Below, one piece after another: positions 5,108 to 45,755 of a stretch of 64,000 nt of DNA. Within the stretch, counting starts at the first letter, position 1. Every line of letters starts with the position of its first letter. Origin of the DNA: Pseudomonadota bacterium. GTDB taxonomy: Bacteria; Pseudomonadota; Gammaproteobacteria; Burkholderiales; Burkholderiaceae_C. The stretch lies in the NCBI GenBank assembly GCA_021847345.1, contig JAJZTW010000015.1, positions 1 through 64,000 on the forward strand. The letters are read 5' to 3'. A program made the translations under genes and the position numbers. The notes beneath the pieces are model-generated. The model was not told the DNA's origin. It was given only the letters and a program-made list of their open reading frames with translations, and ran no database searches.

Positions 5108-6382
5108 TCAATGCGCCTGAATGCAGCGCGCGAATTCTTCGCGCTCCCAAGCGCGGATGGCCAGCGCATCGGCTTCGAGCTGCTCGCGGCTGACATGGCA
5201 AAGATAGACCCCGCCGGGCTTGGACCCCAGGTCGACCGTGGGCAGCAGGCGATCGCCTTTTCGAAGCGCCATCCTGTGTCCATGGTAGGAGGCCAGGCTG
5301 CGGATCGGCTCGAGGTCGATATCTCGCAACAGCCGGCCTTCGACTCCGGAAATCAGACTGACCCCCATCGCCTGCAGCTTCAGGGGTTCGGCGCTGGGCC
5401 GCGCGCGTGCCCATTCGGGAATCAGATAGGCATCCACGACCTCGTCGATGTAGGAGCGGCCGAACACCCTCAGGCTGAGACAGGGATCCATGCCACCCGC
5501 CGGGCGGGTGGCCGTCTCCAGGATTCGTGGTCCCTGCGCGGTCATGATGATTTCCGTGTGCGAGGCCCCCCAGCGCACACCCAGCGCATCCAGCACCCGG
5601 GCGACGTAGTCGCGGATCGGCGCCATCGGCTCGGCGGACGCATCCTCCAGGATCTGGCGGTCATAGATCACGCGCCCGTTCGCATCGCCCTGGACCCGGC
5701 TTTTCACGGATTTCCAGATTTCCCGGAAATGGTGCTGTCCAGCGACGGAGACGGTATTGACGGCATATTCATCGCCGGCAAGGAAGCCTTGCACGACCAC
5801 GCCGCAGTTCGCCACACCGAACACGTTCCGGTTCGCGACGATCGAGGCCACCGCCCGACGCACGGCTTCGGCGTCATCGCACACCATCACGTGATCCGAC
5901 CCGGCACTGGCCGCGGGCTTCACGACCAGCCTCGGCGGCACGGGCCCCGGCGTGCTCCATACCTGCTCAGCACGCTCGTCGAAGTGGATCTGCCAGGGAA
6001 TCGGAACACCCGCCGCATCCAGGCATCGATGCATCGCACGCTTGTCCTGCCTTGCGCCAGGCCACGCAGCCGCATTGGCGGTCGCGACACCGAGGGCCAG
6101 CGCCAGTTCGTCGGCCAGGGAACTGCCGGTTTCCGCTCCGGCCAGCACATGGGACACGCGCAGGCCCTTCAGGCGCCGCACCACGCCGGCGAGGCCTTCG
6201 CGTGCATCGATGCAGTCGATGAAATCGCCCTGCTCCGCGCAGGCCATTCCTGGCGCGGGCTCGCAGGCGGTCCTCACATGAACCACGTCGATGCCCCGGC
6301 AGCGCAAGGCGGGCGGGAAATACGCACCGCTCGAGAATGCATCCACGACGGCCACCGTTGCATGGTTGTATCCAGCCCTCAT
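5108..6382 (-). CDS. ATP-grasp ligase (L-amino-acid ligase/BacD-like)
   Basis: LVVKPAASAGSDHVMVCDDAEAV, VVVQGFLAGDEYAVNTVSV, SHTEIIMTAQGPRILETATRPAGGMDP; ATGA overlap with the upstream MFS gene. Confidence 0.75.
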   Translation of the reverse strand: MRAGYNHATVAVVDAFSSGAYFPPALRCRGIDVVHVRTACEPAPGMACAEQGDFIDCIDAREGLAGVVRRLKGLRVSHVLAGAETGSSLADELALALGVATANAAAWPGARQDKRAMHRCLDAAGVPIPWQIHFDERAEQVWSTPGPVPPRLVVKPAASAGSDHVMVCDDAEAVRRAVASIVANRNVFGVANCGVVVQGFLAGDEYAVNTVSVAGQHHFREIWKSVKSRVQGDANGRVIYDRQILEDASAEPMAPIRDYVARVLDALGVRWGASHTEIIMTAQGPRILETATRPAGGMDPCLSLRVFGRSYIDEVVDAYLIPEWARARPSAEPLKLQAMGVSLISGVEGRLLRDIDLEPIRSLASYHGHRMALRKGDRLLPTVDLGSKPGGVYLCHVSREQLEADALAIRAWEREEFARCIQAH

Positions 6383-7623
6383 GTCCCGTCTCCCCTCGCT
6401 GTGTGAACACCATGGATCGATACCGCGACCATGAGAAATGCCGCCACGGACAGGGCCACCGCCAGACGCACGTCGAGCACGTAGAGCAATGCCGACGGAA
6501 CGGCGAGGCCGGCCAGGCCGGCGGCCGCCAGCAGGAAGGCGCGCCGGCTGAACTCCGACCCCATGCGTGCGGGATCCATGGCAGCCACCCATTCCAGGTT
6601 GAATCTCATGAACGCCAGCTCGAAGGCCACCATGAAGGCGAAATAGCTCAGGTAGCTGATTCGCGGCTCCCGAATCAGGAAGGCCAGCGCCAGCGCCGAC
6701 ACGGTTGCACCGGTGAGCCACAGCCAGGGCCGCTGGCACGAACGCCCCAGGCGAACAAAGCCGCTGGACAGCCAGGCACCGAGCAACACCCCCACGGTTG
6801 CCAGCGCGCTGACCACCCCGACCCCGGCAACCCCCTGGCCGAGGTAGCTCATCGGATAGGCGACCCGAATGGCATTGTGCAGACCCTGGAAGGCAGTGAT
6901 CACACCGAGCATGCCCAGCCAGTACGCTGCGCGCCGGCTCCTGGCATGTCGCGCATGTCGCGCGTGCACGGCCGGCAGGGTGCCGGGGGCCCCGGGAGGG
7001 TTCAGGTGGGCGGCGGACCGCGGCACCTTGACATGTCGCAACCCGATGGCCGTGATGCCGAACACGCCCGCGCTCCACGCCAGCAAGGCCACGGGGCCTG
7101 CGCTCGCGCCGATCAGCGAAAACACCACCCCGGCGGTGGCGGTTCCCACGATGCGCCGGAACTCCAGAGACGCGATGGCCTGGTCCGCGAGTTCGCCGCA
7201 GGGGCAGATGGTTCTGGCGGCCACCGACGCCGCGGCGCGGGTCAGCGCGTCGGTGAAGCCCCTCAGGCTCGCGAGGCAGACCGCGAGGGCCACGTTCGAG
7301 TGCCAGACCGCGATCGCGCAAAGCGCGAAAACCCCCACGCTGGCCATCTCGGACAGACTGGCGACGCGGGTCGGCGAGCGCCCCTCGGTCAGCCAGGCGA
7401 TGCCCCGAGGCCACAGCAGGGTCACGAGCCACTGGCCGGCGAAGACCAGCGAGGACAGCGCGACCCGCCCGGTCGCCTGGTCCACCCACACCGCCAGGGC
7501 GAGCAGGCCGAGCATCGACGCGGTACTGGAACCCTGCACCGCCCAGCAAAGGCCCTGGACTCCCCGGCCGCCGGGCTTGCTCGCCTTGCCGCAAGGCAGA
7601 AACCGCATCAGGAGACGCTGCAT
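6379..7623 (-). CDS. Major facilitator superfamily exporter
   Basis: Multiple hydrophobic helices across the ORF C-terminal about 414 aa starting MQRLLMRFLPCGK; start position approximate. Confidence 0.75.
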   Translation of the reverse strand: MQRLLMRFLPCGKASKPGGRGVQGLCWAVQGSSTASMLGLLALAVWVDQATGRVALSSLVFAGQWLVTLLWPRGIAWLTEGRSPTRVASLSEMASVGVFALCAIAVWHSNVALAVCLASLRGFTDALTRAAASVAARTICPCGELADQAIASLEFRRIVGTATAGVVFSLIGASAGPVALLAWSAGVFGITAIGLRHVKVPRSAAHLNPPGAPGTLPAVHARHARHARSRRAAYWLGMLGVITAFQGLHNAIRVAYPMSYLGQGVAGVGVVSALATVGVLLGAWLSSGFVRLGRSCQRPWLWLTGATVSALALAFLIREPRISYLSYFAFMVAFELAFMRFNLEWVAAMDPARMGSEFSRRAFLLAAAGLAGLAVPSALLYVLDVRLAVALSVAAFLMVAVSIHGVHTARGDGT

Positions 7624-7828
7624 CGAATCGAACACTCCAAGACCACCGCACTCGAACGGTCGTCGAACCAGGGCGAAGCAAGGGAAGGGGCTGGGGGAAT
7701 CACGCATCGCGCATGCATCGCGCGGTCCATCGCGCGGTCCATCGCGCCACGGACTGCGCCACCAGCGACACCCCGACGCCGCCGCCCCGACGCCGGCCTG
7801 GTTCGAGACCTCGTGGGTCGGGATCGCG

Positions 7829-8989
7829 TCAGCGCAGCCCACCGCGCAAATGCGTGGCACCGGCGAGTCGATCCCGCAACTCCATGCCGGGAAGGATCGG
7901 CAGCTCGGCCTTCCCGTCGCAAGCGGCAGGCTCGTGCACCACATGGCGCCATGGCACCAGCTTTTCCGCGTTGTCCGCGCTGGCCAGGATGGCGGCCAGG
8001 ATTTCCTCGTCCTCGATCCCCAGGGCATGCGCCGAAAGCATCAGGTTGCTGTTCTTCTGCACGCCGGGAATCGTGTTGATCTCGAGAAAAATGGGTTCAC
8101 CGCTCGCCTGCTCGACCAGGAAATCCGCTCGGATCGCTCCGTCGAAATCCAGAGCGGAGCAGATCGCATGCATGGCCTCGTGGATCGGACCGACCCATGG
8201 GTGGGACCGATCGACGATCGGCTGGAATTCCACCGACGGCCCGCGCGCGCAGCCCAGTTTCGACGGGCCGTCGTAGTACACCGCCGCGGGTTTGCACGCC
8301 AGCGGCGGCATCATCACCGCGCTGCCGCCGAAGTACAGCACCGGAACCGTCACGGCGACGCCCTCGACGAAGGGCTCGATGATGAAGTCCCTGAAACCCT
8401 GCCCGGCGTGCTCCGCCAGCGCCCGGGCAAACTCCGAGCGGCTGCTCACCAGGCTCAGGCCGATGCTGCTGCCCCCGAGACAGGCCTTGAGCATGAAGGG
8501 GAACGACGGGAGCCGATCGGGCACGCCCCACTCGGGCTTGACGCGCTGGCTCGGCAGGGTCCGCACCCGCGCGCCATGCAGCATGAGCTTCATCAGGCGC
8601 TTGTCCGCCGCGACGCCGCTGGGAGCCACGCCGCTTCCGGTGTAGGGAATGCCAAGATAGGCGAGCAGGCCCTGCAGATTGCCATCCTCGCCGAAGGGGC
8701 CGTGCGTATTGAGAAAGGCGGCATCGAGCCCTTCGAGCGAGGCGATGAAATCGGGCGCGGTGGGGTCGACCCACTCGCTGGATATGCCGATGTTGCCGAA
8801 GCTTCGGGTGATGTCCATGACCGAAAGCTGGCTGCTCGGCTTGTGGCGCAGATAGGTTCCGTCCTCCACCGACGTGGCCCCGTACAGCACGCCGACACGC
8901 CAGTTGCGCATCGAGGCCATCTTGTTCGCGATGCGCCTTCGGAACGCGTCGCGTTCCAGTTCCCACCACCCCATCAGCCCGCTCGGCAT
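7829..8989 (-). CDS. D-alanine-D-alanine ligase-like ATP-grasp protein
   Basis: WRVGVLYGATSVEDGTYL, LNTHGPFGEDGNLQGLLAYLGIPYTGSGVAPSGVAADKRLMK, LKACLGGSSIGLSLV, EINTIPGVQKNSNL; no cell-wall gene context. Start chosen at MPSGLMGWWE with AGGGGG upstream. Confidence 0.8.
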   Translation of the reverse strand: MPSGLMGWWELERDAFRRRIANKMASMRNWRVGVLYGATSVEDGTYLRHKPSSQLSVMDITRSFGNIGISSEWVDPTAPDFIASLEGLDAAFLNTHGPFGEDGNLQGLLAYLGIPYTGSGVAPSGVAADKRLMKLMLHGARVRTLPSQRVKPEWGVPDRLPSFPFMLKACLGGSSIGLSLVSSRSEFARALAEHAGQGFRDFIIEPFVEGVAVTVPVLYFGGSAVMMPPLACKPAAVYYDGPSKLGCARGPSVEFQPIVDRSHPWVGPIHEAMHAICSALDFDGAIRADFLVEQASGEPIFLEINTIPGVQKNSNLMLSAHALGIEDEEILAAILASADNAEKLVPWRHVVHEPAACDGKAELPILPGMELRDRLAGATHLRGGLR

Positions 8990-31035: not shown

Positions 31036-31750
31036 ATCCGCCTCCCCCCATGTGCTGCGCCTGCAGGACCTGCGCAAGTCCTACCAGGTCGGCACCGCAC
31101 TGGAAACCGAGGTGCTGCACGGCATCGACTTCGAGCTGCGGCGCGGCGAGTTCACCGCGCTGGTCGGCCCCAGCGGCTCGGGCAAGACCACGCTGCTCAA
31201 CCTGATCGGCCTGCTCGACACCCCCACGTCCGGCGAGCTGTACCTGCTGGATCGTCCCACGCGCGAGCTGGACGACGCGGCGCGCACCGCGCTGCGCGGC
31301 GGCTCGATCGGATTCGTGTTCCAGTTCCACCACCTGATCCAGGCCTTCGGCGTGCTGGACAACGTGCTCATGCCGGCGCTGGTGCAGGGTGCGCGGCGCA
31401 GCGCGGAACTCGAACGACGCGCGCTGGAGCTGCTCGAAGCCGTGGGCCTGGGAGCGCACGCGCACAAGCGCCCCTCCGAGCTGTCCGGCGGCCAGCAGCA
31501 GCGGGTGGCCATCGCCCGCGCGCTGCTGACACGCCCGCCCCTGGTGCTGGCCGACGAGCCCACCGGCAACCTGGACACCCACAGCGCCGACGACGTGTTC
31601 GCGCTGCTGCGCCGCTTCAACCGCGAGTTCGGCTGCGCGGTGCTGGTGGTCACGCACGACCCGCGGCTGGCTCATCGCTGCGACCGCATCGTCGACCTGG
31701 TCGACGGCCGGCTGGTCGGCGACCGGGCGATCGTCGCCGAGGCGGGCTGA
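31028..31750 (+). CDS. ABC transporter ATP-binding protein (LolD/MacB-like)
   Basis: [20 protein letters not shown] Walker [33 protein letters not shown] signature and Walker B. Confidence 0.95.
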
Positions 31751-31786
31751 GGCGCGTGACCCGGCGCCTGCAGGCCGAGCCGGCGA

Positions 31787-32398
31787 TCAGCCGGCCGCGG
31801 CGAGGCTTCGCGCCACCTGGCGCGCCAGGTGCTGCGCCGCGCGGCGCCACATGGTCTGGTTGTCGGCCTTGACCTCGAGCGTGTAGTCGCCGACCACCGA
31901 TCCGCGGCGCGGATCGATGAGCCGGGCCTGCAGGTACAGGATCAGGTCGCTGACCTTGCGCACCGACGCGCTGAGCACGTAGTCGGCGCCGGCGCTGCGC
32001 CCCAGGCGCAGCAGGCAGGGTCCGCAGCTCGACGGATGGGCGTAGTCCCCGGCAAGTTCGCGTTCGTCGCGGCGCACTGCCGGGGTGTCGAGCATGCGCA
32101 CGCCGGGCGCGGCGTTGCGCAGCGCCTGTTCGAACTGTCCCGGCATGCTGCGCAGCCAGTCGGCCTGCCACTTCAGCAACTGCGGGCGCTGGTCGATCGA
32201 CGTGTCGAAGAACTCGAAGGGCAGCACGATTATGCGTTGCTGGCGCGCCGTGGCCGCAGGCGCGGGCGGTGCGTCGCCGGCGGCATGGGACGCGGGCGCG
32301 GCGAGCAGCGCGCACAGCGCCAGCAGCGCCGCGCGGACCATGGCGAAGCGGCGGTGGCGACGCGGGGCGGGATTCGGCGGCAACGTCAGTGGGGGCAT
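31787..32398 (-). CDS. DUF2380-like secreted protein
   Basis: Signal peptide MVRAALLALCALLAAPASHA; RIIVLPFEFFDTSID...GADYVLSASVRKVSDLILYLQARLIDPRRGSVVGDYTLEVKADNQTMWRRA. Confidence 0.65.
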   Translation of the reverse strand: MPPLTLPPNPAPRRHRRFAMVRAALLALCALLAAPASHAAGDAPPAPAATARQQRIIVLPFEFFDTSIDQRPQLLKWQADWLRSMPGQFEQALRNAAPGVRMLDTPAVRRDERELAGDYAHPSSCGPCLLRLGRSAGADYVLSASVRKVSDLILYLQARLIDPRRGSVVGDYTLEVKADNQTMWRRAAQHLARQVARSLAAAG

Positions 32399-32898
32399 GG
32401 CGACGGCTCCTGGATGGGCCCGGCCGTGCACGCCGCGGTCGACGAGCGCCGGGACGCGTCGGCCCAGTGTATGCCTGCCCCGGCGCATACGCCGAAGCGC
32501 CGAGCGCGGATGCCGATACGTGTGGTTGCATCCCGCCGGGCACGGCTACGGGCGCCGGCATGCCTGGACAACGGTCGCGATTGTCCTCGTAGAGAGCAGT
32601 CCCGCACATTTTGTTGCAGATATCGTTAGGGCTTCGGTTTTTTTGTTGGTTTTTGCTCTGGACTCGACAAGCCGTGCGCGCAAGAATGGGCCGGAGGCTT
32701 CTGGCTCACACAGCGTCGTCCGCACCGGACAGGGCACGACCAAGACCCTAGACGCGGGAACCATCGGGAGCCCCGGAACACACGCACCCCGACGGGGTGC
32801 GGCAGGCAGCGCCGGCCAAGGGGGGCCACGCGGAGCATGGCGTGAGCGAGCGCCGCGGCGTTCCGGATGAAGATGGTTCGAATCCGAGGAGACCGGAG

Positions 32899-34875
<1,977 letters not shown>

Positions 34876-34904
34876 CGGCGCGCGGCCTGTGCGCCGCGCC
34901 TTTC

Positions 34905-34936
34905 CACTGTGTTGCAGGCGCTGGAGCAAACTGTTC
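34905..34936. promoter_or_regulatory. Candidate upstream activator site (cACTGTgTTGCaggcgctggaGCAAACTGTtc)
   Basis: TTGC-N10-GCAA dyad flanked by direct ACTGT repeats, about 90-120 bp upstream of the -24/-12 element. Confidence 0.4.
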
Positions 34937-35023
34937 CGCGCCGCGCCGCGCCGACCCGGCGCGCGCGCATGGCTGGCGCCGCGCCCCCTCGGAGAGCCTG
35001 CGCGACAGGCGCCTCGAGCGAAC

Positions 35024-35039
35024 TGGCACGGAGGTTGCT
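35024..35039 (+). promoter_or_regulatory. Sigma-54 (-24/-12) promoter TGGCACGGAGGTTGCT upstream of xoxF
   Basis: Full match to the TGGCACG-N4-TTGC(A/T) consensus, about 140 bp upstream of xoxF and downstream of a sigma-54 activator gene. Confidence 0.85.
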
Positions 35040-35048
35040 CACTGCGTT

Positions 35049-35145
35049 CCCGAGACCCTCAAGATCTCTCGGGCAAGCGCGGGTCCGTCCCGCGCCTTCC
35101 CGACCCCGCGACGGGGGAGCTCAGAGCCGCAGTCGGGCGACTGCG
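35049..35145 (+). other. Structured xoxF 5' leader: four consecutive hairpins
   Basis: CCCGAGA/TCTCGGG (35049-35073), GCGCGGG/CCCGCGC (35077-35095), CCCCG/CGGGG (35104-35116), CGCAGTC/GACTGCG (35128-35145); all arms perfectly complementary. Confidence 0.7.
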
Positions 35146-35177
35146 ACTTCGTTCACTCGCTAGAGGAGACAACTGCC

Positions 35178-37022
35178 GTGTACAAGTTCGTCAAGTCCGC
35201 AAGCCGCAAGGCGGCCCTCAAGCCCAGGTGGCTTGCAGGTGCCGCGCTTGTCGCTTTCGCCTCCGCCGGCATGATGGCGGCGCAGGCGCAATCCATCGGG
35301 GAAATGTCCGGCAACCCCGACAACTGGGTCATGCCGGCCGGCAACTACGCCAACTGGCGCTACAGCAAGCTCGACCAGATCACCACCAGCAACGCCAAGG
35401 ACCTGCAGCCGGCGTGGACCATGTCCACCGGGACGCTGCGCGGCCACGAAGGCCAGCCGCTGGTGATCGGCGACATGATGTACTACGAGACCCCGTATCC
35501 CAACCACGTCTACGCGGTCGATCTCAACGACCCGGACCACAAGGTGGCCTGGGAATTCACGCCGCCGCCGAACCCCAACGCACCGCCGGTGGCCTGCTGC
35601 GACGTGGTCAACCGCGGCCCCGGCTACTACCCGGGCAACGGCGGCGAGGTGATCGTGGCCGCGCTCGACGGCATGATCTACTCCCTCAATGCCAAGACCG
35701 GCGCGGTCGACTGGAAGTTCCAGAACGGCGACCCGAAACTGGGCCAGACCGTGACGGCAGCGCCGCAGGTGTTCAAGAACATCGTGCTGGTGGGCATCTC
35801 GGGCGGTGAATACGGGGTCAACGGCTACATCACCGCGCTGGACGCCAAGACCGGCAAGATGCTGTGGCGCGGCTACAGCAACGGCCCCGACAAGATGACC
35901 CTGATGAACCAGGGCGGCGAGCAGACCATCAACGGAGCCACGCAGGAGCCCGTCGGTCCCGACTCCAGCCTGAAGACCTGGAAGGGCGACGAGTGGAAGG
36001 TCGGCGGCGGCACGACCTGGGGCTGGTATTCCTACGACCCCAAGACCGACCTGGTCTACTACGGCAGCGGCAACCCGGGGACCTGGAACCCCTCGCAGCG
36101 CCCCGGCCTGAACCGCTGGTCGATGAGCATCTGGGCACGCAACCTGCAGACCGGCGCGGTCAAGTGGGTGTACCAGATGACCCCGCACGACGGTTGGGAC
36201 TATGACGGGGTCAACGAGATGGTGCTGTTCGACGCCCACGTCGACGGCAAGACCGTCCCGGCGCTGGCGCACTTCGACCGCAACGGCTTCTCCTTCGTGC
36301 TCGACCGCGACAACGGCAAGCTGATCGCGATCCACAAATACGACCCGTCCGTGAACTGGGCCAGCGGCTTCAACATGAAGACCGGCATGCCCAACCTGGA
36401 CGAGAAGTACATGACCCACGCAGGGGTCAACGTGAAGGGGATCTGCCCGTCCTCGCAGGGCGACAAGGACCAGCAGCCGGTGTCCTTCGACCCGCAGACC
36501 GGGCTGTTCTATGCGCCGCTGAACCACCTGTGCATGGACTACCAGGCCTTCAAGGTCAAGTACCTGGCCGGCTTCCCCTTCGTGGGCGCCATCGTCAACA
36601 TGAAGCCCGGCCCCGGCGGCTATCGTGGACGCTACATCGCCTACGACCCGGTCACCGGCAAGACCGACTGGCAGATCCACGACACCTTCCAGGACTGGGG
36701 CGGCTCGCTGACCACCGCCGGCGGCGTGGCCTTCTACGGCACGCTCAAGGGCGACTTCCGCGCGGTCGACGCGAAGACGGGCAAGGTGCTCTACAGCTTC
36801 CACTGCCCGTCGGGGATCATCGGCAACCCGATCACCTACATGCATGACGGACGCCAGTACGTCGCCGTGCTGAGCGGTGTCGGCGGCTGGGCTGCGATCG
36901 GGATGACCAACAACCTGCACAAGGCCACCGCCGGCCTGGGCGCGGTGGGTCTGAACGCCAGTCTCAACCAGTACACCCAGCTGGGTGGCACGTTGATGGT
37001 CTTCGCACTGCCCAAGACCTGA
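35178..37022 (+). CDS. xoxF: Lanthanide-dependent PQQ methanol dehydrogenase XoxF
   Basis: WANWRYSKL-type N-terminus (GNYANWRYSKLDQITTSNAKDLQPAWTMSTG), VACCDVVNRG vicinal Cys, GGEYGVNGY, YYGSGNPGTWNP, and GWDYDGVNEM carrying the extra Asp diagnostic of XoxF; GTG start with GAGGAG upstream. Confidence 0.97.
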   Translation: MYKFVKSASRKAALKPRWLAGAALVAFASAGMMAAQAQSIGEMSGNPDNWVMPAGNYANWRYSKLDQITTSNAKDLQPAWTMSTGTLRGHEGQPLVIGDMMYYETPYPNHVYAVDLNDPDHKVAWEFTPPPNPNAPPVACCDVVNRGPGYYPGNGGEVIVAALDGMIYSLNAKTGAVDWKFQNGDPKLGQTVTAAPQVFKNIVLVGISGGEYGVNGYITALDAKTGKMLWRGYSNGPDKMTLMNQGGEQTINGATQEPVGPDSSLKTWKGDEWKVGGGTTWGWYSYDPKTDLVYYGSGNPGTWNPSQRPGLNRWSMSIWARNLQTGAVKWVYQMTPHDGWDYDGVNEMVLFDAHVDGKTVPALAHFDRNGFSFVLDRDNGKLIAIHKYDPSVNWASGFNMKTGMPNLDEKYMTHAGVNVKGICPSSQGDKDQQPVSFDPQTGLFYAPLNHLCMDYQAFKVKYLAGFPFVGAIVNMKPGPGGYRGRYIAYDPVTGKTDWQIHDTFQDWGGSLTTAGGVAFYGTLKGDFRAVDAKTGKVLYSFHCPSGIIGNPITYMHDGRQYVAVLSGVGGWAAIGMTNNLHKATAGLGAVGLNASLNQYTQLGGTLMVFALPKT

Positions 37023-37052
37023 GTCGAGCCTCCCTTGTGGCAATGACGGAGC

Positions 37053-37090
37053 GGGGCCACGTCGCGCGGTTTGGATGTGGCCCTTTTTTT
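37053..37090 (+). terminator. Rho-independent terminator downstream of xoxF
   Basis: GGGGCCAC-loop-GTGGCCC followed by TTTTTTT. Confidence 0.85.
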
Positions 37091-37158
37091 CCTACTACAA
37101 GCAACGCATTGCCCGCTGGTTGCCGCTGATGGTTCGGTATTTCAACGAGGAGGCTCTG

Positions 37159-37965
37159 ATGAACATGCTTCGACCCTCACGCCTGCTGGCCGCCATGGCG
37201 GCCTGCGCGGGCCTGCTGTACGCCGGCGGCGCACTGGCCGCCAAGCCCCTGCGCGTGTGCGCGGACCCCGACTACCTGCCCTATTCCAACCAGGCCGGAC
37301 AAGGCTTCGAGAACAAGGTCGCCGAACTGGTGGCCAAGTCCCTGGGCCGGCCGCTCCAGTACGTCTGGTCGAGCTACCGCCAGCCCGGCGGCTTCGACAA
37401 CTTCCTCGCGCTCAACCTGGACAAGGGCAAGTGCGACGTCGTGATGGACATCCCCTACGGCGACCCGGAGGAGACCTACACCCGTCCGTACTACGGATCG
37501 ACCTACGTGTTCGTGTGGAAGAAGTCCCACGACTACGACCTGTCCAAGGGACTCGACTCGCCGATCCTGCGCAAGGTGCGGATCGGCTTCGAAAGCGGCA
37601 CGCCGCCCGAGATGGGCCTGAAGATGCGCAACCTGTTGCTCGGCGCCAAGCCCTTCGACACCGCGGAAAAGCGCGGCGTCAGCCCGGCGTCGACCCTGCG
37701 CGCGGTGCAGGACGGCAAGGTCGACGTGCTGCTCACGTGGGAGCCCGCGATCGGCGCATCGATGAAGAAGTTTCCCGACCTGACCATGGCGCGGGTGCCC
37801 GACACCAACGCGCTGGGCAGCCCCGAGCGCTACCTGTTCTTCATGTCGATGGCAGTTCGCCCGAAGGACAAGGCCTTGAGAAACCGGATCAACCAGGTGA
37901 TCGCCAGCCACAAGCCGCAGATCGCCCAGATCATGGACGACTACAACGTGCACATCCTGCGCTGA
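37159..37965 (+). CDS. xoxJ: XoxJ-like periplasmic substrate-binding-fold protein associated with XoxF
   Basis: Signal peptide; KPLRVCADPDYLPYSNQAGQGFENKVAELVAKSLGRPLQYVWSSYRQPGGFDNFLALNLDKGKCDVVMDIPYGDPE; directly after xoxF. Confidence 0.9.
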   Translation: MNMLRPSRLLAAMAACAGLLYAGGALAAKPLRVCADPDYLPYSNQAGQGFENKVAELVAKSLGRPLQYVWSSYRQPGGFDNFLALNLDKGKCDVVMDIPYGDPEETYTRPYYGSTYVFVWKKSHDYDLSKGLDSPILRKVRIGFESGTPPEMGLKMRNLLLGAKPFDTAEKRGVSPASTLRAVQDGKVDVLLTWEPAIGASMKKFPDLTMARVPDTNALGSPERYLFFMSMAVRPKDKALRNRINQVIASHKPQIAQIMDDYNVHILR

Positions 37966-38068
37966 GCAAAGACTCGCCGGGCCGGTGCCCCGACCACCGT
38001 TCACGCCACGCGGCCGGGCTCGTCACCGGCTCGACTCCTTCCCGACCTTCGCGCAAAACATTCTCATC

Positions 38069-38842
38069 ATGTCTTCGATCCATCCCTCTTCCTTCTCTCC
38101 AACCGGCGCGCGACGCGCGCTGCGCCGCGGTCTGCTCAGCCTGTCCCTGCTCGCCGCCGGCGCGCTGGGCTGCAGCGCCCAGGCCGCCGACATGGCCACG
38201 CTGGGCCAGCAGGTCGCCAAGGGCAGCGACTGCCTGTCCTGCCACGCGGTGGACCACAAGGTCGTGGGCCCGGCCTTCGACGCCGTCGCCGCCAGGTACG
38301 CCGGCAAGCCCGGGGCCAAGCAGATGCTGATGGACGCCGTGAAGAACGGCCACGTCGGCACCTGGGGCAAGATCCCGATGCCGCCCCACCCCCAGCTGTC
38401 GCAGAAGCAGCTCGACGAGGTCATCACCTGGGTCTTGTCGCTGAAGTCGGCGAAGGCGGCCGAGCCCAAGCCGGCCGCGGCAAAGACCTACAGCTACGAC
38501 GTGGCGGGCAAGACCGTGCACCTGGACTTCCCGGTGTTCGAGCACGGATCCAACGGCAAGGTCACGAAGGCCGTGTTCCGCGGCTACGAGCTGTGGAATT
38601 CCTACTGCTTTCGCTGCCACGGCGTCGACGCCACCGGCTCCGAGTACGCGCCCGACCTGCGCAAATCGGTGCTCAACGGCATGAGCTCGCAGCGCATGAC
38701 CTCGATCGCCATGACGGGCATCAAGGCCAAGGGGATGCCGTCCTGGGCGGGCTTCTTCGACCCCGGGCAGTTGCAGGACATCTACCAGTACGTGGCGGCG
38801 CGCGCCTACAAGCTGGTGGCCGAGGGAACGCCGGCGCAGTGA
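38069..38842 (+). CDS. Diheme cytochrome c (c551-type domain fused to XoxG/c-L-type domain)
   Basis: Two CxxCH motifs: GSDCLSCHAVDHKVVGPAFDAVA and WNSYCFRCHGVDATGSEYAPDLRKS; signal peptide. Confidence 0.85.
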   Translation: MSSIHPSSFSPTGARRALRRGLLSLSLLAAGALGCSAQAADMATLGQQVAKGSDCLSCHAVDHKVVGPAFDAVAARYAGKPGAKQMLMDAVKNGHVGTWGKIPMPPHPQLSQKQLDEVITWVLSLKSAKAAEPKPAAAKTYSYDVAGKTVHLDFPVFEHGSNGKVTKAVFRGYELWNSYCFRCHGVDATGSEYAPDLRKSVLNGMSSQRMTSIAMTGIKAKGMPSWAGFFDPGQLQDIYQYVAARAYKLVAEGTPAQ

Positions 38843-38912
38843 ACGCACCTCGAGCCCCGGCCGGCGCACGCGGCCGACCGGCTCGTGTCATCATTTGGGG
38901 GAACGACCCGCC

Positions 38913-38967
38913 GGGCGCGCACCTGACCGTGCGCGCCCTTGTCGCGCAGACGCACGCTCGAGCGTGC
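38913..38967 (+). promoter_or_regulatory. Leader hairpin (10-bp stem GGGCGCGCAC/GTGCGCGCCC) followed by 16-bp palindrome GCACGCTCGAGCGTGC upstream of the TonB receptor
   Basis: Read directly at 38913-38938 and 38952-38967. Confidence 0.6.
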
Positions 38968-39001
38968 CGCAAGGCGGATCGCAACCCCCCGGAGGAGACT
39001 C

Positions 39002-41152
39002 ATGTCGCATCAGCGGTTTCACGCTCCCGTGCCCTCGCACGGCCTGCAGGCATTGCGCCCGCGCACCCTCGTCGCCGCGCTGCTCGGCGTCGGCCTCGCC
39101 AGCGTGCCCTGCGCGTACGCCGCCGCAGCGGCGGCGCCGGCGGTACCCGTGGCGAGCGCGCCGACGCAGCAACTGCAGACCGTGACCGTGCAGGGCGTGG
39201 CCTACGGCGCGCAGGCGGTACGCCTGCCCTCGACCATCTCGGTGCTGGGGCGTCGCGACCTCACCGAGGGGCAGCAACGCGTGAACCTGTCCGAGACCCT
39301 CAACCAGGTACCCGGCCTGGTGGTCAACAACCGCCAGGACTACGCGCAGGACATGCAGCTGTCGATCCGCGGCTTCGGCGCCGACTCCCCCTTCGGCGTG
39401 CAGGGCGTGCAGATGAGCCTGGACGGCATCCCGCTGACCATGCCCGACGGCCAGGGCCAGTCGCAGACCATCGACCTGCCGATGATCGGCGCGATGAAAA
39501 TCATCAAGGGCCCGTTCGCGGCGCTGTACGGAAACGCCGCCGGCGGCGTGATCCAGGCCTACACGATGGATGCGCCTCGCCCCCCGGCGGCGAGCCTGTC
39601 CACCTGGCTCGGCGCCTGGAACAGCCAGCAGACCACGCTGATCGGAGGCGGCAGCAGCGGCAAGGTCGACGGCATCGCCGGGCTGACCGACTTCCACACC
39701 GACGGCTGGCGGGAGCACAGCGCAGCGACACGCCGTCAGTTCAACACCGTGCTGCATTGGAACGCCGGCGACGACGATCGCTACACGCTGGTGTTCAACG
39801 CGCTGAACCAGGACGCGCAGGACCCCGGCGGACTCAATGCCGCCGAGTACGCGGCCGATCCGCGCCAGGTCGATCCGGGCGCCCTCAAGTTCGACACCCG
39901 CAAGAGCGTGCGCAACCGCCAGGCGGGCGTGAACTGGCAGCACCGCTTCGATGCCGCCGACACGCTGCAGCTCAGCGCCTATGGCGGCACGCGCAGCATC
40001 ACGCAGTACCTGCCGTTTCCGGGAACCCCGACCAGCTCGGCTGGCGGCGTGGTCTCGCTGGCCGACACCTTCGGCGGCACCAACCTGACCTGGTCGCACA
40101 GCGGCGAGCTGGCGGCGCGCCCGTACACACTGGCAACCGGACTGGACTACGGTCGCGAAAACGAGTTCCGCAAGGGGTACGAAAACCTCTACGGGGCGCA
40201 GGGAGCCCCGCGCAACGACCAGTTCAACACGGTCGACAACATCGCCGAGTTCGTGCAGGCGAACTGGGAGCTCACTCCGACCGTGTCGCTCAGCGGCGGG
40301 GTGCGCCACGACGCCGTGAATTTCAACTCGATTCCGGGCAGCGAGGGCCTGTCGGCTGCCGGCACCGGCGGCGGCGCGCGCTACTCCAGCACGGACCCGG
40401 TGATCGGCGTGCTGTGGAAGGTCGACCGCCACAATCGCCTGTACGCCGATTACGGCCACGGCTTCGTCACGCCGACCTTCTACCAGCTGGCCTATCGGCC
40501 CAACAACCAGCCGGGCCTGAACTTCGCGCTGCAGCCGATGCACCTGCACAACAGCGAGGTCGGCTGGCGCGGGGACTTCGGGCGCGTGCACGCTCAAGCG
40601 GCGCTGTACTACGTGACCACCGACAACGAAATCGTGGGCGCCAACGACAACGGTCGCACGGTCTACTCCAATGCCGGCGGCACGCGGCGCTACGGCGCCG
40701 AGCTGAGCCTCGACGCACGCCTGCCGCAGCACCTGGAAGGCCGCGTGTCGTTCAACGCCATCCACGTGCGCTTCGACAGCGGCTCGCTGTCCGGCAACAC
40801 CCTGCCCGGCGTGCCGAGCGAGCAGTTGTACGCCGCCCTGACCTGGCGTCCGCCGCTGCAGTCGGCCGCGCTGCAGGGCTTCTACACCCGCGTGTCGATG
40901 CTGGCGCGCTCGCGGGCCTACGCCGACAACGCGAACACCGCCTGGGCGGCGGGCTGGGCCAGCTTCGACTGGGCCGCCGGGGTCGAGCAGCACCATGGGC
41001 CGTGGAAGCTGTCCGAGTTCGTTCGCGTCGACAACATCGCCGATCGCACCTACGTGGGGGCGCTGGTGATCAACGACAGCAACCAGCGTTTCTACGAAGC
41101 GGCTCCCGGACGCAACGCCAGCGTCGGGGTCGAGATCAACCGCAGTTTCTGA
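39002..41152 (+). CDS. TonB-dependent receptor, PqqU (YncD)-like
   Basis: SIRGFGADSPFGVQGVQMSLDGIPLTMPDGQGQSQTIDLPMIGAMKIIKGPFAALYGNAAGGVIQ and C-terminal YVGALVINDSNQRFYEAAPGRNASVGVEINRSF closely resemble E. coli YncD/PqqU as remembered. Confidence 0.8.
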   Translation: MSHQRFHAPVPSHGLQALRPRTLVAALLGVGLASVPCAYAAAAAAPAVPVASAPTQQLQTVTVQGVAYGAQAVRLPSTISVLGRRDLTEGQQRVNLSETLNQVPGLVVNNRQDYAQDMQLSIRGFGADSPFGVQGVQMSLDGIPLTMPDGQGQSQTIDLPMIGAMKIIKGPFAALYGNAAGGVIQAYTMDAPRPPAASLSTWLGAWNSQQTTLIGGGSSGKVDGIAGLTDFHTDGWREHSAATRRQFNTVLHWNAGDDDRYTLVFNALNQDAQDPGGLNAAEYAADPRQVDPGALKFDTRKSVRNRQAGVNWQHRFDAADTLQLSAYGGTRSITQYLPFPGTPTSSAGGVVSLADTFGGTNLTWSHSGELAARPYTLATGLDYGRENEFRKGYENLYGAQGAPRNDQFNTVDNIAEFVQANWELTPTVSLSGGVRHDAVNFNSIPGSEGLSAAGTGGGARYSSTDPVIGVLWKVDRHNRLYADYGHGFVTPTFYQLAYRPNNQPGLNFALQPMHLHNSEVGWRGDFGRVHAQAALYYVTTDNEIVGANDNGRTVYSNAGGTRRYGAELSLDARLPQHLEGRVSFNAIHVRFDSGSLSGNTLPGVPSEQLYAALTWRPPLQSAALQGFYTRVSMLARSRAYADNANTAWAAGWASFDWAAGVEQHHGPWKLSEFVRVDNIADRTYVGALVINDSNQRFYEAAPGRNASVGVEINRSF

Positions 41153-41153
41153 A

Positions 41154-41179
41154 ACCGGCCGGCCGCCCGCGCGGCCGGT
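41154..41179. terminator. Possible stem-loop terminator after the TonB receptor gene
   Basis: ACCGGCCG...CGGCCGGT inverted repeat immediately after the stop codon; no T-run. Confidence 0.4.
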
Positions 41180-41200
41180 CCACCAGGCAGGAGGCAAGCC

Positions 41201-41515
41201 GTGATCCAGATCAGCGTGATGTACCCGGACCAGCCCGACGCACGGTTCGACATGACCTACTACACCGAGATCCACCTGCCCCTGGTGCAACGCCTGACCG
41301 GCCCGGCCTGCCGCAAGGTGGCCGCGCAACGCGGAGTGGCCGGTGCGCGCCCCGGGTCGCGTCCGGCCTATGTCGCGATGGGGCACCTGTACTTCGACTC
41401 GGTGCCGGAGTTCGAGCGGGCCTTCGCGCCGCACGCCGAGCAGATCCTCGGTGACCTGCCCAATTTCACCAACCTGCAGCCGACCATCCAGATCAGCGAC
41501 GTGGTGGTGGACTGA
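41201..41515 (+). CDS. EthD family protein
   Basis: ISVMYPDQPDARFDMTYYTEIHLPLVQRLTGPA...YVAMGHLYFDSVPEFERAFAPHAEQILGDLPNFTNLQP. Confidence 0.85.
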   Translation: MIQISVMYPDQPDARFDMTYYTEIHLPLVQRLTGPACRKVAAQRGVAGARPGSRPAYVAMGHLYFDSVPEFERAFAPHAEQILGDLPNFTNLQPTIQISDVVVD

Positions 41516-41529
41516 CAGCTCGCGCCGCC

Positions 41530-42114
41530 ATGTACCCCGCAGCGCAGACCGACCCACCGGCGCACGGCGACGCGCCGCGCCTGGCGTGGGGCCTGACCGG
41601 CTCCGGGCACTGGCTGCGCGAAACCCTGGACTACCTGCGGCAACTCGACGGCGTGGACCTGTTCCTGACCCGCGCCGCCGCCGAGATCCTGGCCCAGTAC
41701 GGATACGGGCTCGACGCGCTGCGCGAGCGCATGCGGGTGTACCAGGACCGCACCGCCAGCGCGGTGCCGGTCGGCTTCCTGTACGGCGCGCACTATCACA
41801 CGCTGGTCATCGGCCCGGCGACATCGAACACGGTGGCCAAGTGCGTGGCCGGAATCTCCGACACGCTGGTGACCAACCTGTACGCGCAGGCCGGCAAGTG
41901 CCGCATACCCAGCATCGTGTTCGCCTGCGACACGCGCCCGACCGAGATCTCCGAGGCGCCGGGACGCACCGTCACGCTGTACCCACGCCCGGTGGACCTC
42001 GACAACACGGCGCGCCTGGCGCGCATGCCGCTGACCCGGGTGACCGAAGACTTCGATTCCCTCAAGGCTGCCGTCGGGCAGCGACTGGCATGTCTTCGCA
42101 CATCCTGTTCCTGA
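41530..42114 (+). CDS. Flavoprotein, DmrB/AfpA-like (putative dihydromethanopterin reductase)
   Basis: LAWGLTGSGHWLRETLDYLRQLDGVDLFLTRAAAEILAQYG...YHTLVIGPATSNTVAKCVAGISDTLVTNLYAQAGK. Confidence 0.75.
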   Translation: MYPAAQTDPPAHGDAPRLAWGLTGSGHWLRETLDYLRQLDGVDLFLTRAAAEILAQYGYGLDALRERMRVYQDRTASAVPVGFLYGAHYHTLVIGPATSNTVAKCVAGISDTLVTNLYAQAGKCRIPSIVFACDTRPTEISEAPGRTVTLYPRPVDLDNTARLARMPLTRVTEDFDSLKAAVGQRLACLRTSCS

Positions 42115-43496
42115 CCGGGCACCTCGCGCACGAGCCGCTTCGCCGCGTGCTCGGCGACATGGGCGACGCCGGATTCCGCTGGACCGTGCACGACCTGGGC
42201 CTGCAGGTGGCGGCGCTGATGACCGCGGACATGATCGCACGGCGCCTGCACGACACCTTCGGCGCCGACCGCATCATCGTCCCCGGGCGCTGCCGGGGCG
42301 ACCTCGACGGGCTTTCGCGCAAGCTGGGCGTGCCGGTCGAGCGCGGCCCCGACGAACTCGCAGACCTGCCCGAGTTCTTCGGCCGCGCCGCGCGGCGGGT
42401 GCGCCTGGAGCGCCACGACGCGCTGATCTTCGCCGAGCTGACCGACGCGCCGCGCATGGACGTCGACGCCATCGTCGCGGCCGCCTGCGCACTGGCCGCC
42501 GACGGTGCCGACGTCATCGACCTCGGCTGCCTGCCGCAGACCGGCTTCGCGCATCTGGAGCAGGCCGTGCGTGCGCTGCGCGCCCGCGGCCTGCGCGTCA
42601 GCGTCGACTCGCAGGACCCGGGCGAACTCGCGCGCGGCGCGCGCGCCGGCGCCGACTACCTGCTGTCGCTGAACCTGGACACCCTGGAACTGGCCTTCGA
42701 GACCGACGCGGTGCCCGTGCTGGTGCCGTCGCCGGGCGGCGGCCTGGACAGCCTGCTGCGCGCGATGGAGCGCCTGGAGGCACGCGGCAAGGCCTATTTC
42801 GCCGACCCCATTCTCGACCCGCTGCCCTTCGGCTTCACCGACTCGCTGGTGCGCTACCACGAGCTGCGCCGGCGCGCGCCCGAGGCCCCCATGCTGATGG
42901 GCACCGGGAACATCTCCGAACTCGTGGAGGCCGACACCAGCGGCATGCATGCGCTGCTGCTGGGCATCATGTCCGAGCTGCGCATCGGCGCGCTGCTCAC
43001 CACCCAGGTCAGTCCGCACTGCCGCAGCGCGGTGCGCGAGATCGACTACGCCAGGCGCCTGATGTGGGCCGCGCGCGAACTGCGCAGCCTGCCCAAGGCA
43101 CTGGGAGACGGCCTGCTCGGCATGCACCACCGCAAACCCTTCGTGCAGGACGAGGCACAGATCCGGGAGTTCGCGGCGGGAGTGCGCGACCCCAACTTCC
43201 GCATCCAGCTCGGCCCTTCGGGCATCCACGTGTACAACCGCGACGGCCTGCGCACCGGCACCGACCCCTTCGAATTGTGGCCGTGCCTGGGGGTCGGGCA
43301 CGATGCCTCGCACGCCTTCTACCTGGGCGTGGAACTGGCAAGGGCGCAGATCGCCTGGCAGCTGGGCAAGCGCTACGCGCAGGACGAACCGCTGCGCTGG
43401 GGCTGCATGGTGCCGGCGCCGTCCGACGACGCCGGCGACGCGCAATGCGCTCCGGGGCCGACCCGCCGCCACACGCCCGAGGAGTCGCCATCGTGA
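42090..43496 (+). CDS. Dihydropteroate-synthase-like H4MPT biosynthesis protein
   Basis: DGADVIDLGCLPQTGFAHLEQAVRALRARGLRVSVDSQDPGELARGARAGADYLLSLN; within the H4MPT cluster. Confidence 0.8.
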   Translation: MSSHILFLTGHLAHEPLRRVLGDMGDAGFRWTVHDLGLQVAALMTADMIARRLHDTFGADRIIVPGRCRGDLDGLSRKLGVPVERGPDELADLPEFFGRAARRVRLERHDALIFAELTDAPRMDVDAIVAAACALAADGADVIDLGCLPQTGFAHLEQAVRALRARGLRVSVDSQDPGELARGARAGADYLLSLNLDTLELAFETDAVPVLVPSPGGGLDSLLRAMERLEARGKAYFADPILDPLPFGFTDSLVRYHELRRRAPEAPMLMGTGNISELVEADTSGMHALLLGIMSELRIGALLTTQVSPHCRSAVREIDYARRLMWAARELRSLPKALGDGLLGMHHRKPFVQDEAQIREFAAGVRDPNFRIQLGPSGIHVYNRDGLRTGTDPFELWPCLGVGHDASHAFYLGVELARAQIAWQLGKRYAQDEPLRWGCMVPAPSDDAGDAQCAPGPTRRHTPEESPS

Positions 43497-44110
43497 ACCC
43501 CGGCATGGACCCCGGCGCCGACGACAGCGGGATCACCGAGGCGCTGGTCGGAACCCTCGCCGCCGACGGCGCCACGCACCTGGCGCCGCTGGGCTTTCGA
43601 CGCCAGCGCGAATATGTGGTGCTGGCGCCCTTCCACCCGTCGCGCACGCTGGACAACCTGCGCGAGCGCGGCGTGGCCTCGATCAGTCACGTCTGCGACG
43701 TGCGCGTGTTCGCCGGCTGCCTGACCGGGCGCCGTGACTGGCCGCTGCTGCCTTGCGAGAGCGTTGCCTGCGCACGCCTGGCCGATGCCGTGACCCACCA
43801 GGAGCTTCGCGTGCTGCACATCGACGAAAGCGACCCGCAGCGCCCGCGCTTCGTGTGCCGCGAACTGCTGCTGCGGGCGCACGGCCCGTGGCCCGGCTAC
43901 AACCGCGCGCAGGCCGCGGTGCTCGAGGCCTGCATCCTGGTCAGCCGCCTGCAACTGCTTCCCGTCGACCGCATCCGCGCCGGAATGGAGCAGCTCGCAG
44001 TCGCGGTGGACAAGACCGCCGGGCCTCGCGAGCGCGAGGCCTGGCAGTGGCTGCTGCAACGCGTGCAGGAATTCGACGCGGCGCGGGCCCAGGTGGAGCC
44101 GGCACGATGA
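43493..44110 (+). CDS. DUF447-family protein of the H4MPT cluster
   Basis: Flavin-reductase-like fold; ITEALVGTLAADGATHLAPLGFRR..., NNLRERG-type motif; GTG start uncertain. Confidence 0.7.
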   Translation: MNPGMDPGADDSGITEALVGTLAADGATHLAPLGFRRQREYVVLAPFHPSRTLDNLRERGVASISHVCDVRVFAGCLTGRRDWPLLPCESVACARLADAVTHQELRVLHIDESDPQRPRFVCRELLLRAHGPWPGYNRAQAAVLEACILVSRLQLLPVDRIRAGMEQLAVAVDKTAGPREREAWQWLLQRVQEFDAARAQVEPAR

Positions 44111-44871
44111 ACGCGACACGTCTGCAGCAACTGCGACACGACGCGACGCCCGGCTGGCTGGCCAGCGTCACCGACGCGCGCGAGGCGCTGCTGGCGCGCG
44201 ACGCAGGCGCCGACGTGCTCGACGCCAAGAACCCGCGCGCCGGTGCCCTGGGCGCGCTGCCGCTGCACACGGTGCGCGAAATGCGTGCCGCGCTGGGCCC
44301 GCGCCCGCTGCTCAGCGCCACCACCGGCGACCTCGTCGACATGCCGGCGCGAGACCTGGCCGACGCGTCGCGCGCCCTGCTCGATGCCGGCGTCGACGTG
44401 GTCAAGATCGCACTGTATCCGGCCAGCTCGCTGGCCGATTGCATCGACGCGCTGGCGCCGCTGGCGCGCCGCCACGCGCTGGTCGGCGTGCTGCTGGCGG
44501 ACCGGCTGCACGGGCCCTGCGCGCCGCAGCACCTGCACGGGCTGCTGGGCGCCATGGCGCGCGCACACTGGGCCGGCGTCGTGCTCGACACCGCCGACAA
44601 GTCAGCCGGCGCGCTGCCCGAGCGCATGCCTGCGCCAGGCCTGCGCGAATTCATCGCTCACGCACATGCCCATGGCCTGTTGTGCGGGCTCGCCGGCTCG
44701 CTGCGCGCGCATCACGTCGGGGAGCTCGCGCCGCTGCGCCCCGACCTGCTCGGATTCCGCGGCGCGCTTTGCAGTGCAGCGCTGCGCACTGCCGGACTGG
44801 ACGCCACTCGCGTGGCCGAGGTCGCGGCGGCGATGCGCGCCGTCGCCCAGGCGCCGGCGCGCGCGGCCTGA
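44107..44871 (+). CDS. MfnB-like (5-formylfuran-3-yl)methyl phosphate synthase
   Basis: WLASVTDAREALLARDAGADVLDAKNPRAGALGALPLHTVREM...LSATTGDLVDMP; ATGA overlap with upstream gene. Confidence 0.85.
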   Translation: MNATRLQQLRHDATPGWLASVTDAREALLARDAGADVLDAKNPRAGALGALPLHTVREMRAALGPRPLLSATTGDLVDMPARDLADASRALLDAGVDVVKIALYPASSLADCIDALAPLARRHALVGVLLADRLHGPCAPQHLHGLLGAMARAHWAGVVLDTADKSAGALPERMPAPGLREFIAHAHAHGLLCGLAGSLRAHHVGELAPLRPDLLGFRGALCSAALRTAGLDATRVAEVAAAMRAVAQAPARAA

Positions 44872-44916
44872 AGCGTGCCAGGCGGGTGCCGGGCGCGCGC
44901 ACGGGGAGACACCGAC

Positions 44917-45375
44917 ATGCACACCCGAAGACGCACGGTATTGCAATGGGGAACGACCGGGGGACTGCTGGCGCTGGGCCTGCACGCGCCCGGCGCGGCG
45001 GCCTACCAGCCCGACGCATGGCCGGCAGGCCTGTTCAAGGCCACCAGCCTGCGCGCCATCGCCGACGGCCTGGGGCTGCGCCTGCTGCGCAGCGACGCGG
45101 TGCGCGTGACGGGCCCGCACATCGCCGAGATCGGCGCCGCCGTGCCGGTCGGCGTGGAGTGCACCTCGCCGGGCGTCGACCTGCTCGGGCTGGCGGTGCC
45201 GAAAAACCCGGTCGCGCTGGTCGGGCTGTTCGAGCTCGAGGCCGACGCCGAGCCACAGGTGGCCACGCGCATCAAGATGGCGCAGAGCTCGCATGTCTAC
45301 GGACTTGCGCGCAGCGGCGGCTCGCTGCTGTACGCGCGCAAGATGATCAAGGTCACCGTGGGTGGCTGCGGCTGA
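44917..45375 (+). CDS. soxY: SoxY-like sulfur carrier protein
   Basis: Tat-like leader MHTRRRTVLQWGTTGGLLALGL; C-terminal KVTVGGCG swinging-arm Cys. Confidence 0.85.
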   Translation: MHTRRRTVLQWGTTGGLLALGLHAPGAAAYQPDAWPAGLFKATSLRAIADGLGLRLLRSDAVRVTGPHIAEIGAAVPVGVECTSPGVDLLGLAVPKNPVALVGLFELEADAEPQVATRIKMAQSSHVYGLARSGGSLLYARKMIKVTVGGCG

Positions 45376-45404
45376 GGCCGCAGCCACCGCTTCAGGAGAC
45401 TTCC

Positions 45405-45731
45405 ATGCCGGAAACGACCCTGCTTGCCCCGCGCATGCGCGCCACGCGCCAGGACGGCCACGTGGTGGTTCGCGCGCTCATGTTCCACGACGAGGACACC
45501 GGACTGACCCGCGACGAGGTCACGGGGCAACTCATTCCCGCGCATTTCATCCAGCGCGTGCTGTGCACCGTCAACGGCAAGCCGGTGCTGCGCTGCCTGT
45601 GGGGCATCGCGATTTCGAAGAACCCGTTTCTCGAGTTCCACCTGCGCCAGGCGCGCACGGGCGACGTGGTGGCGCTGGAGTGGTTCGACAACGAAGGCAT
45701 GCACCAGCGCGTGAGCACCACGGTGCCGTGA
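45405..45731 (+). CDS. soxZ: SoxZ-like carrier protein
   Basis: PRMRATRQDGHVVVRALMFHDEDTGLTRDEVTGQLIPAHFIQRVLCTVNGKPVLRCLWGIAISKNPFLEF. Confidence 0.88.
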   Translation: MPETTLLAPRMRATRQDGHVVVRALMFHDEDTGLTRDEVTGQLIPAHFIQRVLCTVNGKPVLRCLWGIAISKNPFLEFHLRQARTGDVVALEWFDNEGMHQRVSTTVP

Positions 45732-45755
45732 ATCAGGGGCTCGCGGGCTGCCCGC

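Follow-up and report, generated by a model that had tools for sequence, protein, structure and literature searches.

Gene cluster around xoxF and the receptor gene

In the window, by which the whole analysed stretch of 64,000 nucleotides is meant, a gene for a TonB-dependent receptor of the PqqU type occupies positions 39002–41152 of the forward strand and encodes 716 aa from an ATG start, its reading frame being open from a TTG at 38939. The initial annotation had described a PqqU-like receptor, and an open reading frame was found at exactly the coordinates it gave, with the quoted motifs SIRGFGADSPFGVQGVQMSLDGIPLTMPDGQGQ, KGPFAALYGNAAGGVIQ and VINDSNQRFYEAAPGRN all present in the product. 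Immediately 5′ and on the same strand lies a run of xoxF, xoxJ and cytochrome c genes. The first of these (35178–37022) encodes a lanthanide-type PQQ methanol dehydrogenase of 614 aa (TIGR03075, 657 bits), which starts at the GTG after AGAGGAGA and harbors the WDYDGVNE motif of lanthanide-type enzymes. It is followed by an xoxJ-like gene for a periplasmic binding protein (37075–37965, +), whose match to TIGR03871 (MoxJ_2) reached 189 bits, under the cut-off of 212, and by a gene for a di-haem c-type cytochrome in the xoxG position (38069–38842, +), recognized by two CxxCH motifs and by Cytochrom_C and Cytochrome_CBB3 matches. Ahead of xoxF, a sigma-54-dependent transcriptional regulator is encoded at 32797–34875 (+; DhaR/PrpR/NtrC-type models, best 294 bits); its true start is probably slightly downstream, and the gene is kept 5′ of xoxF in three related loci (L037, L038 and L045).

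On the 3′ side of the receptor gene, the forward strand encodes an EthD-family small protein (41201–41515; TIGR02118, 99 bits, over the cut-off) and a flavoprotein of a C1 gene island (41530–42114; PF02441), after which the pterin-linked methylotrophy genes continue with DUF6513, 4-HFC-P synthase, ATP-grasp and AA kinase. The EthD-family gene, placed here between pqqU and the C1 genes, also adjoins pqqU in L037, L043 and L045 and is found farther downstream of it in L042 and L044. A scan of 34800–43600 returned neither sigma-70 promoters nor forward-strand terminators, a result of limited weight where the genome is GC-rich; we infer that xoxF and pqqU are co-transcribed.

The initial annotation had placed the receptor in a position taken in other methylotrophs by lanthanide receptors such as LutH. 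This was inaccurate, since lutH of M. extorquens AM1 (META1p1785) belongs to a lut cluster and is not beside xoxF1 (META1p1740; PMC7391723), whereas the pqqU of the window is part of the xoxF cluster. LutH of Methylorubrum and LanA of Methylotuvimicrobium are, like the window receptor, TonB-dependent receptors serving XoxF metabolism; however, the window receptor fits PqqU far better than any other modelled receptor family. A TonB receptor is also drawn in the xoxF3 gene clusters of Acidobacteria and Gemmatimonadetes (PMC10875860), although these clusters involve another XoxF clade and other phyla, and their receptor type was not assigned to PqqU. No earlier report of an xoxF–pqqU cluster was found in the literature searched. 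PqqU is of a known kind, and the clade and its gene context are new.

Assignment of the receptor to PqqU

The window receptor aligned over its full length with E. coli K-12 PqqU/YncD (BLASTP, 36% identity, 694 columns, 408 bits), which points to a common fold family. The top PDB sequences were those of PqqU/YncD (6v81, 411 bits; 9c4o, 410 bits; PMC12124388), and the next one, a haem receptor, scored 27 bits, PqqU being the only strong relative among the PDB sequences. Likewise, the NCBIfam PqqU model gave 523 bits and the runner-up model 172, a gap of 350 bits. This score is below the curated cut-off of 1200 bits of that model (NF041535), a narrow PqqU equivalog, which was judged too narrow because the Burkholderiales PqqUs encoded beside pqq genes also miss it, with 642–682 bits, while the E. 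coli protein reaches 1312. An AlphaFold2 run with a 16-sequence alignment gave a model of the receptor with a mean pLDDT of 48, which was set aside.

In addition to a quick tree of 86 rows, a careful tree was built, in which all PqqUs were split from nine other receptors at 100/100. The window clade formed its own branch inside the PqqU assemblage, also at 100/100, the window receptor thus being placed inside and not outside the PqqU clade. This clade is deep and a long branch leads to it, so that a changed substrate is possible. The long branch is one of the points that would favor the alternative that a relative of PqqU has been turned into a receptor for lanthanides or lanthanophores serving XoxF, in the manner of LutH or LanA.

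The residues that contact PQQ argue against such a change. The PqqU signature consists, in E. coli numbering, of Y99 (F or W allowed), R304 and R365, and K274 and R536 are also important in the E. coli protein (Munder et al. 2025, PMC12124388). The window receptor carries F131, R331 and R390 at the three signature positions and also keeps K301 (K274) and R552 (R536), its pocket residues being Q116, F131, Q153, K301, R331, Q335, R390, Y498 and R552. At the eleven sites checked, the letters are identical in the window receptor and in all 16 relatives (L037–L052), the signature being kept in all 17 clade members, and the signature set is absent from BtuB, FhuA, FepA, CirA, FecA and the four other receptors of the host. 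On the other side, the window receptor departs from E. coli PqqU in having Tyr in place of N477 and Leu in place of Q310, both outside the signature. The binding-residue signature, the phylogeny and the closest solved structures altogether bore out the PqqU assignment of the initial annotation, and the product of 39002–41152 is, as judged from its sequence, a PqqU-family importer, which differs from E. coli PqqU in its identity level, in its separate clade and in its gene being part of a quinoprotein cluster.

The same pocket bears on the cargo. For PqqU homologues that have Glu in place of K274, Munder et al. proposed import of a PQQ–metal complex (Ca or Ln), carrying cofactor and metal together (PMC12124388). 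However, Lys is retained at this site in the window receptor and in each of its 16 relatives, and the K274-bearing E. coli structure shows no metal with PQQ (PMC12124388), which leaves uptake of such a complex by the window receptor very unlikely.

PQQ synthesis and gene order in the host and its relatives

The window carries no pqqABCDE genes, as had been noted, but this does not hold for the genome. In a profile search of the assembly to which the window belongs (G000, 93% complete), pqqC and pqqE exceeded their cut-offs, and contig C8 was found to carry the full operon in the order pqqA-B-C-D-E, with a PqqA of 24 residues read by eye. PqqB, PqqC and PqqE are conserved at 82–93% in three related MAGs, and pqqC and pqqE occur in a fourth. 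Contamination was considered an unlikely source of these genes, since the four nearest relatives have the operon too, with 82–93% identity where it was read. The host, which makes its own PQQ, unlike E. coli, has five alcohol-dehydrogenase-type quinoproteins in its genome; rpoB was not found in G000 or in its close relatives G200, G202 and G206, probably owing to an assembly gap.

Since the host has a complete pqqABCDE operon, the proposed dependence of the strain on community PQQ was not supported. A PQQ auxotroph needing community PQQ for methylotrophy would agree with a window devoid of pqq genes and with the existence of clade relatives without them, one of which (G208/L045) has the xoxF cluster; however, the operon on contig C8 and its presence in the four nearest relatives make auxotrophy of this strain extremely improbable, and the host probably does not need to scavenge PQQ. 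Genes for PQQ synthesis that are missing from one stretch should not be taken as auxotrophy.

The receptor most probably imports PQQ for XoxF and the other quinoproteins, supplementing synthesis by the host. A PqqU-type TonB-dependent transporter of the outer membrane would capture free extracellular PQQ with high affinity and pass it to the periplasm, where apo-XoxF and the other quinoproteins of the strain would be loaded. Since the host has pqqABCDE, the importer would here supplement synthesis, leaked PQQ being recaptured and community PQQ taken up, although PQQ synthesis by the host itself also weakens this reading. From the sequence comparisons we infer both PQQ transport by the receptor and its role in recapture. 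The PqqU-type receptor would probably be the sole source of PQQ in several relatives that lack pqq genes.

A genome scan yielded 16 related receptor loci at 59–97% identity, mostly from MAGs labelled Proteobacteria, together with the isolate Thiomonas sp. FB-6. Of the 15 clade loci that could be assessed, the window among them, 14 have a quinoprotein gene 5′ of pqqU on the same strand, separated from it at most by genes for the binding protein, the cytochrome or, in Thiomonas FB-6, T2, which is a second TonB receptor family and not PqqU by model. L040 and L046 are truncated by the ends of their contigs, yet the accessory genes are present. The linked enzyme is of the XoxF type, at 87–92% identity to that of the window, in L037, L038 and L045, and its last 26 residues are seen in L043. 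The remaining linked quinoproteins are a different, exaA-like enzyme (34–39% identity to the window XoxF); an ExaC-type acetaldehyde dehydrogenase is encoded ahead of it in L042, L047 and L049, and the end of one is seen in L050 and L052. Among the other PqqU loci of the order, an adjacent quinoprotein on the same strand was found in 1 of 60 and a nearby one in two; the Fisher value for 14/15 against 1/60 (4e-13) represents a contrast between clades and not independent events, because the clade was gathered by query similarity and its members are related. In 14 of these 60 other Burkholderiales loci (L057, L068, L073, L075, L085, L088–L091, L096, L101, L103, L111 and L112), no more than about 9 kb separates pqqU from pqqB/C/E. 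This is a larger number than the four Burkholderiales genomes for which synteny of pqqU with pqq genes was reported under different criteria (PMC12124388).

ExbB/ExbD-type genes were observed directly 3′ of pqqU in two relatives, at L047 (12177–14616) and L050 (6692–8269). Those of Thiomonas FB-6 are of the ExbB/TolQ and ExbD/TolR types and are accompanied by a possible TonB, which was picked out by eye and matched no model. These genes are perhaps a dedicated energiser of the importer.

Genes pqqC and pqqE were present in 4 of the 15 relatives (G200, G201, G202 and G206, those nearest the window) and were not found in the genomes of the other 11, which include the isolate Thiomonas sp. FB-6 and are for the most part MAGs, with some noise to be expected. 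Since rpoB was found in all 11, gross incompleteness is not the reason for this absence. By this search, G204, G209 and G211–G214, which lack pqqC/pqqE, have exactly one quinoprotein each, which by its coordinates is the one adjacent to pqqU. A single pqqU-linked quinoprotein without PQQ synthesis is what would be predicted if that enzyme were supplied with PQQ imported through the receptor. The idea of PQQ scavenging, which failed for this host, is thus plausible for those relatives in which pqqC/pqqE are missing and pqqU adjoins a quinoprotein gene.

Another arrangement was found in L039 (MAG ZJ1.bin49), which is collinear with the window except that it lacks the segments corresponding to 31745–38974 (regulator, xoxF, xoxJ and cytochrome) and to 41201–45748 (EthD and C1 genes), with pqqU retained between them. 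The gaps flanking pqqU look like two deletions. The genome retains pqqABCDE and has three further quinoproteins, of which none gave an XoxF-like score, so that, barring mis-assembly, pqqU has been kept here without XoxF.

Cofactor, lanthanide and the T2 receptor

Besides the long branch, lanthanide import by the receptor would be favored by its gene adjoining xoxF and by the lanthanide-type DYD motif found in all linked quinoproteins of the clade. Because all of them are DYD, the neighbourhood alone cannot separate PQQ from lanthanide import, and the metal type of the linked enzymes was rejected as a discriminator. However, the intact pocket with its retained K274 equivalent, the persistence of pqqU in L039 and the loss of PQQ synthesis from genomes that retain the quinoprotein, which fits PQQ import, all argue against this alternative. 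It is further opposed by T2, which is encoded next to pqqU in seven relatives and at another place in the genome of the host: with this receptor present, pqqU would not need to carry the metal. The repurposing for lanthanides that the initial annotation had offered as an alternative is, accordingly, unlikely.

The host T2 gene stands alone, not beside pqqU, on the reverse strand of contig C9 of G000 (5837–8287, L121). T2 adjoins pqqU in L040 (3822–4169, cut), L041 (5700–8033), L042 (12017–14269), L044 (4646–6892), L047 (7697–9967), L048 (8107–10377) and L052 (5585–7696). No close solved relative of T2 was found among the PDB sequences. In Paraburkholderia largidicola, a relative at 40% identity is encoded within a methylotrophy island, next to pqqBCDE and fhc genes, and T2 relatives also adjoin pqq genes in L068, L075 and L096. 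T2 would be a better candidate for lanthanide uptake than pqqU. It can be proposed, tentatively and with considerable doubt, that the PqqU clade is part of Thiomonas-like quinoprotein operons in which it is paired with a lanthanide-importing T2, the enzyme and both importers forming one module. If this is true, the PqqU–T2 module would enable cells that make no PQQ to oxidize alcohol or methanol with lanthanide-type enzymes.

Published surveys of PqqU sought linkage with PQQ synthesis rather than with PQQ-using enzymes. Thiomonas sp. FB-6 is a named isolate in which pqqU adjoins the gene of the one quinoprotein and neither pqqC nor pqqE was found. With pqqU fixed beside a PQQ-using enzyme, in hosts with and without synthesis of the cofactor, cofactor sharing in lanthanide-type alcohol oxidation becomes directly testable.
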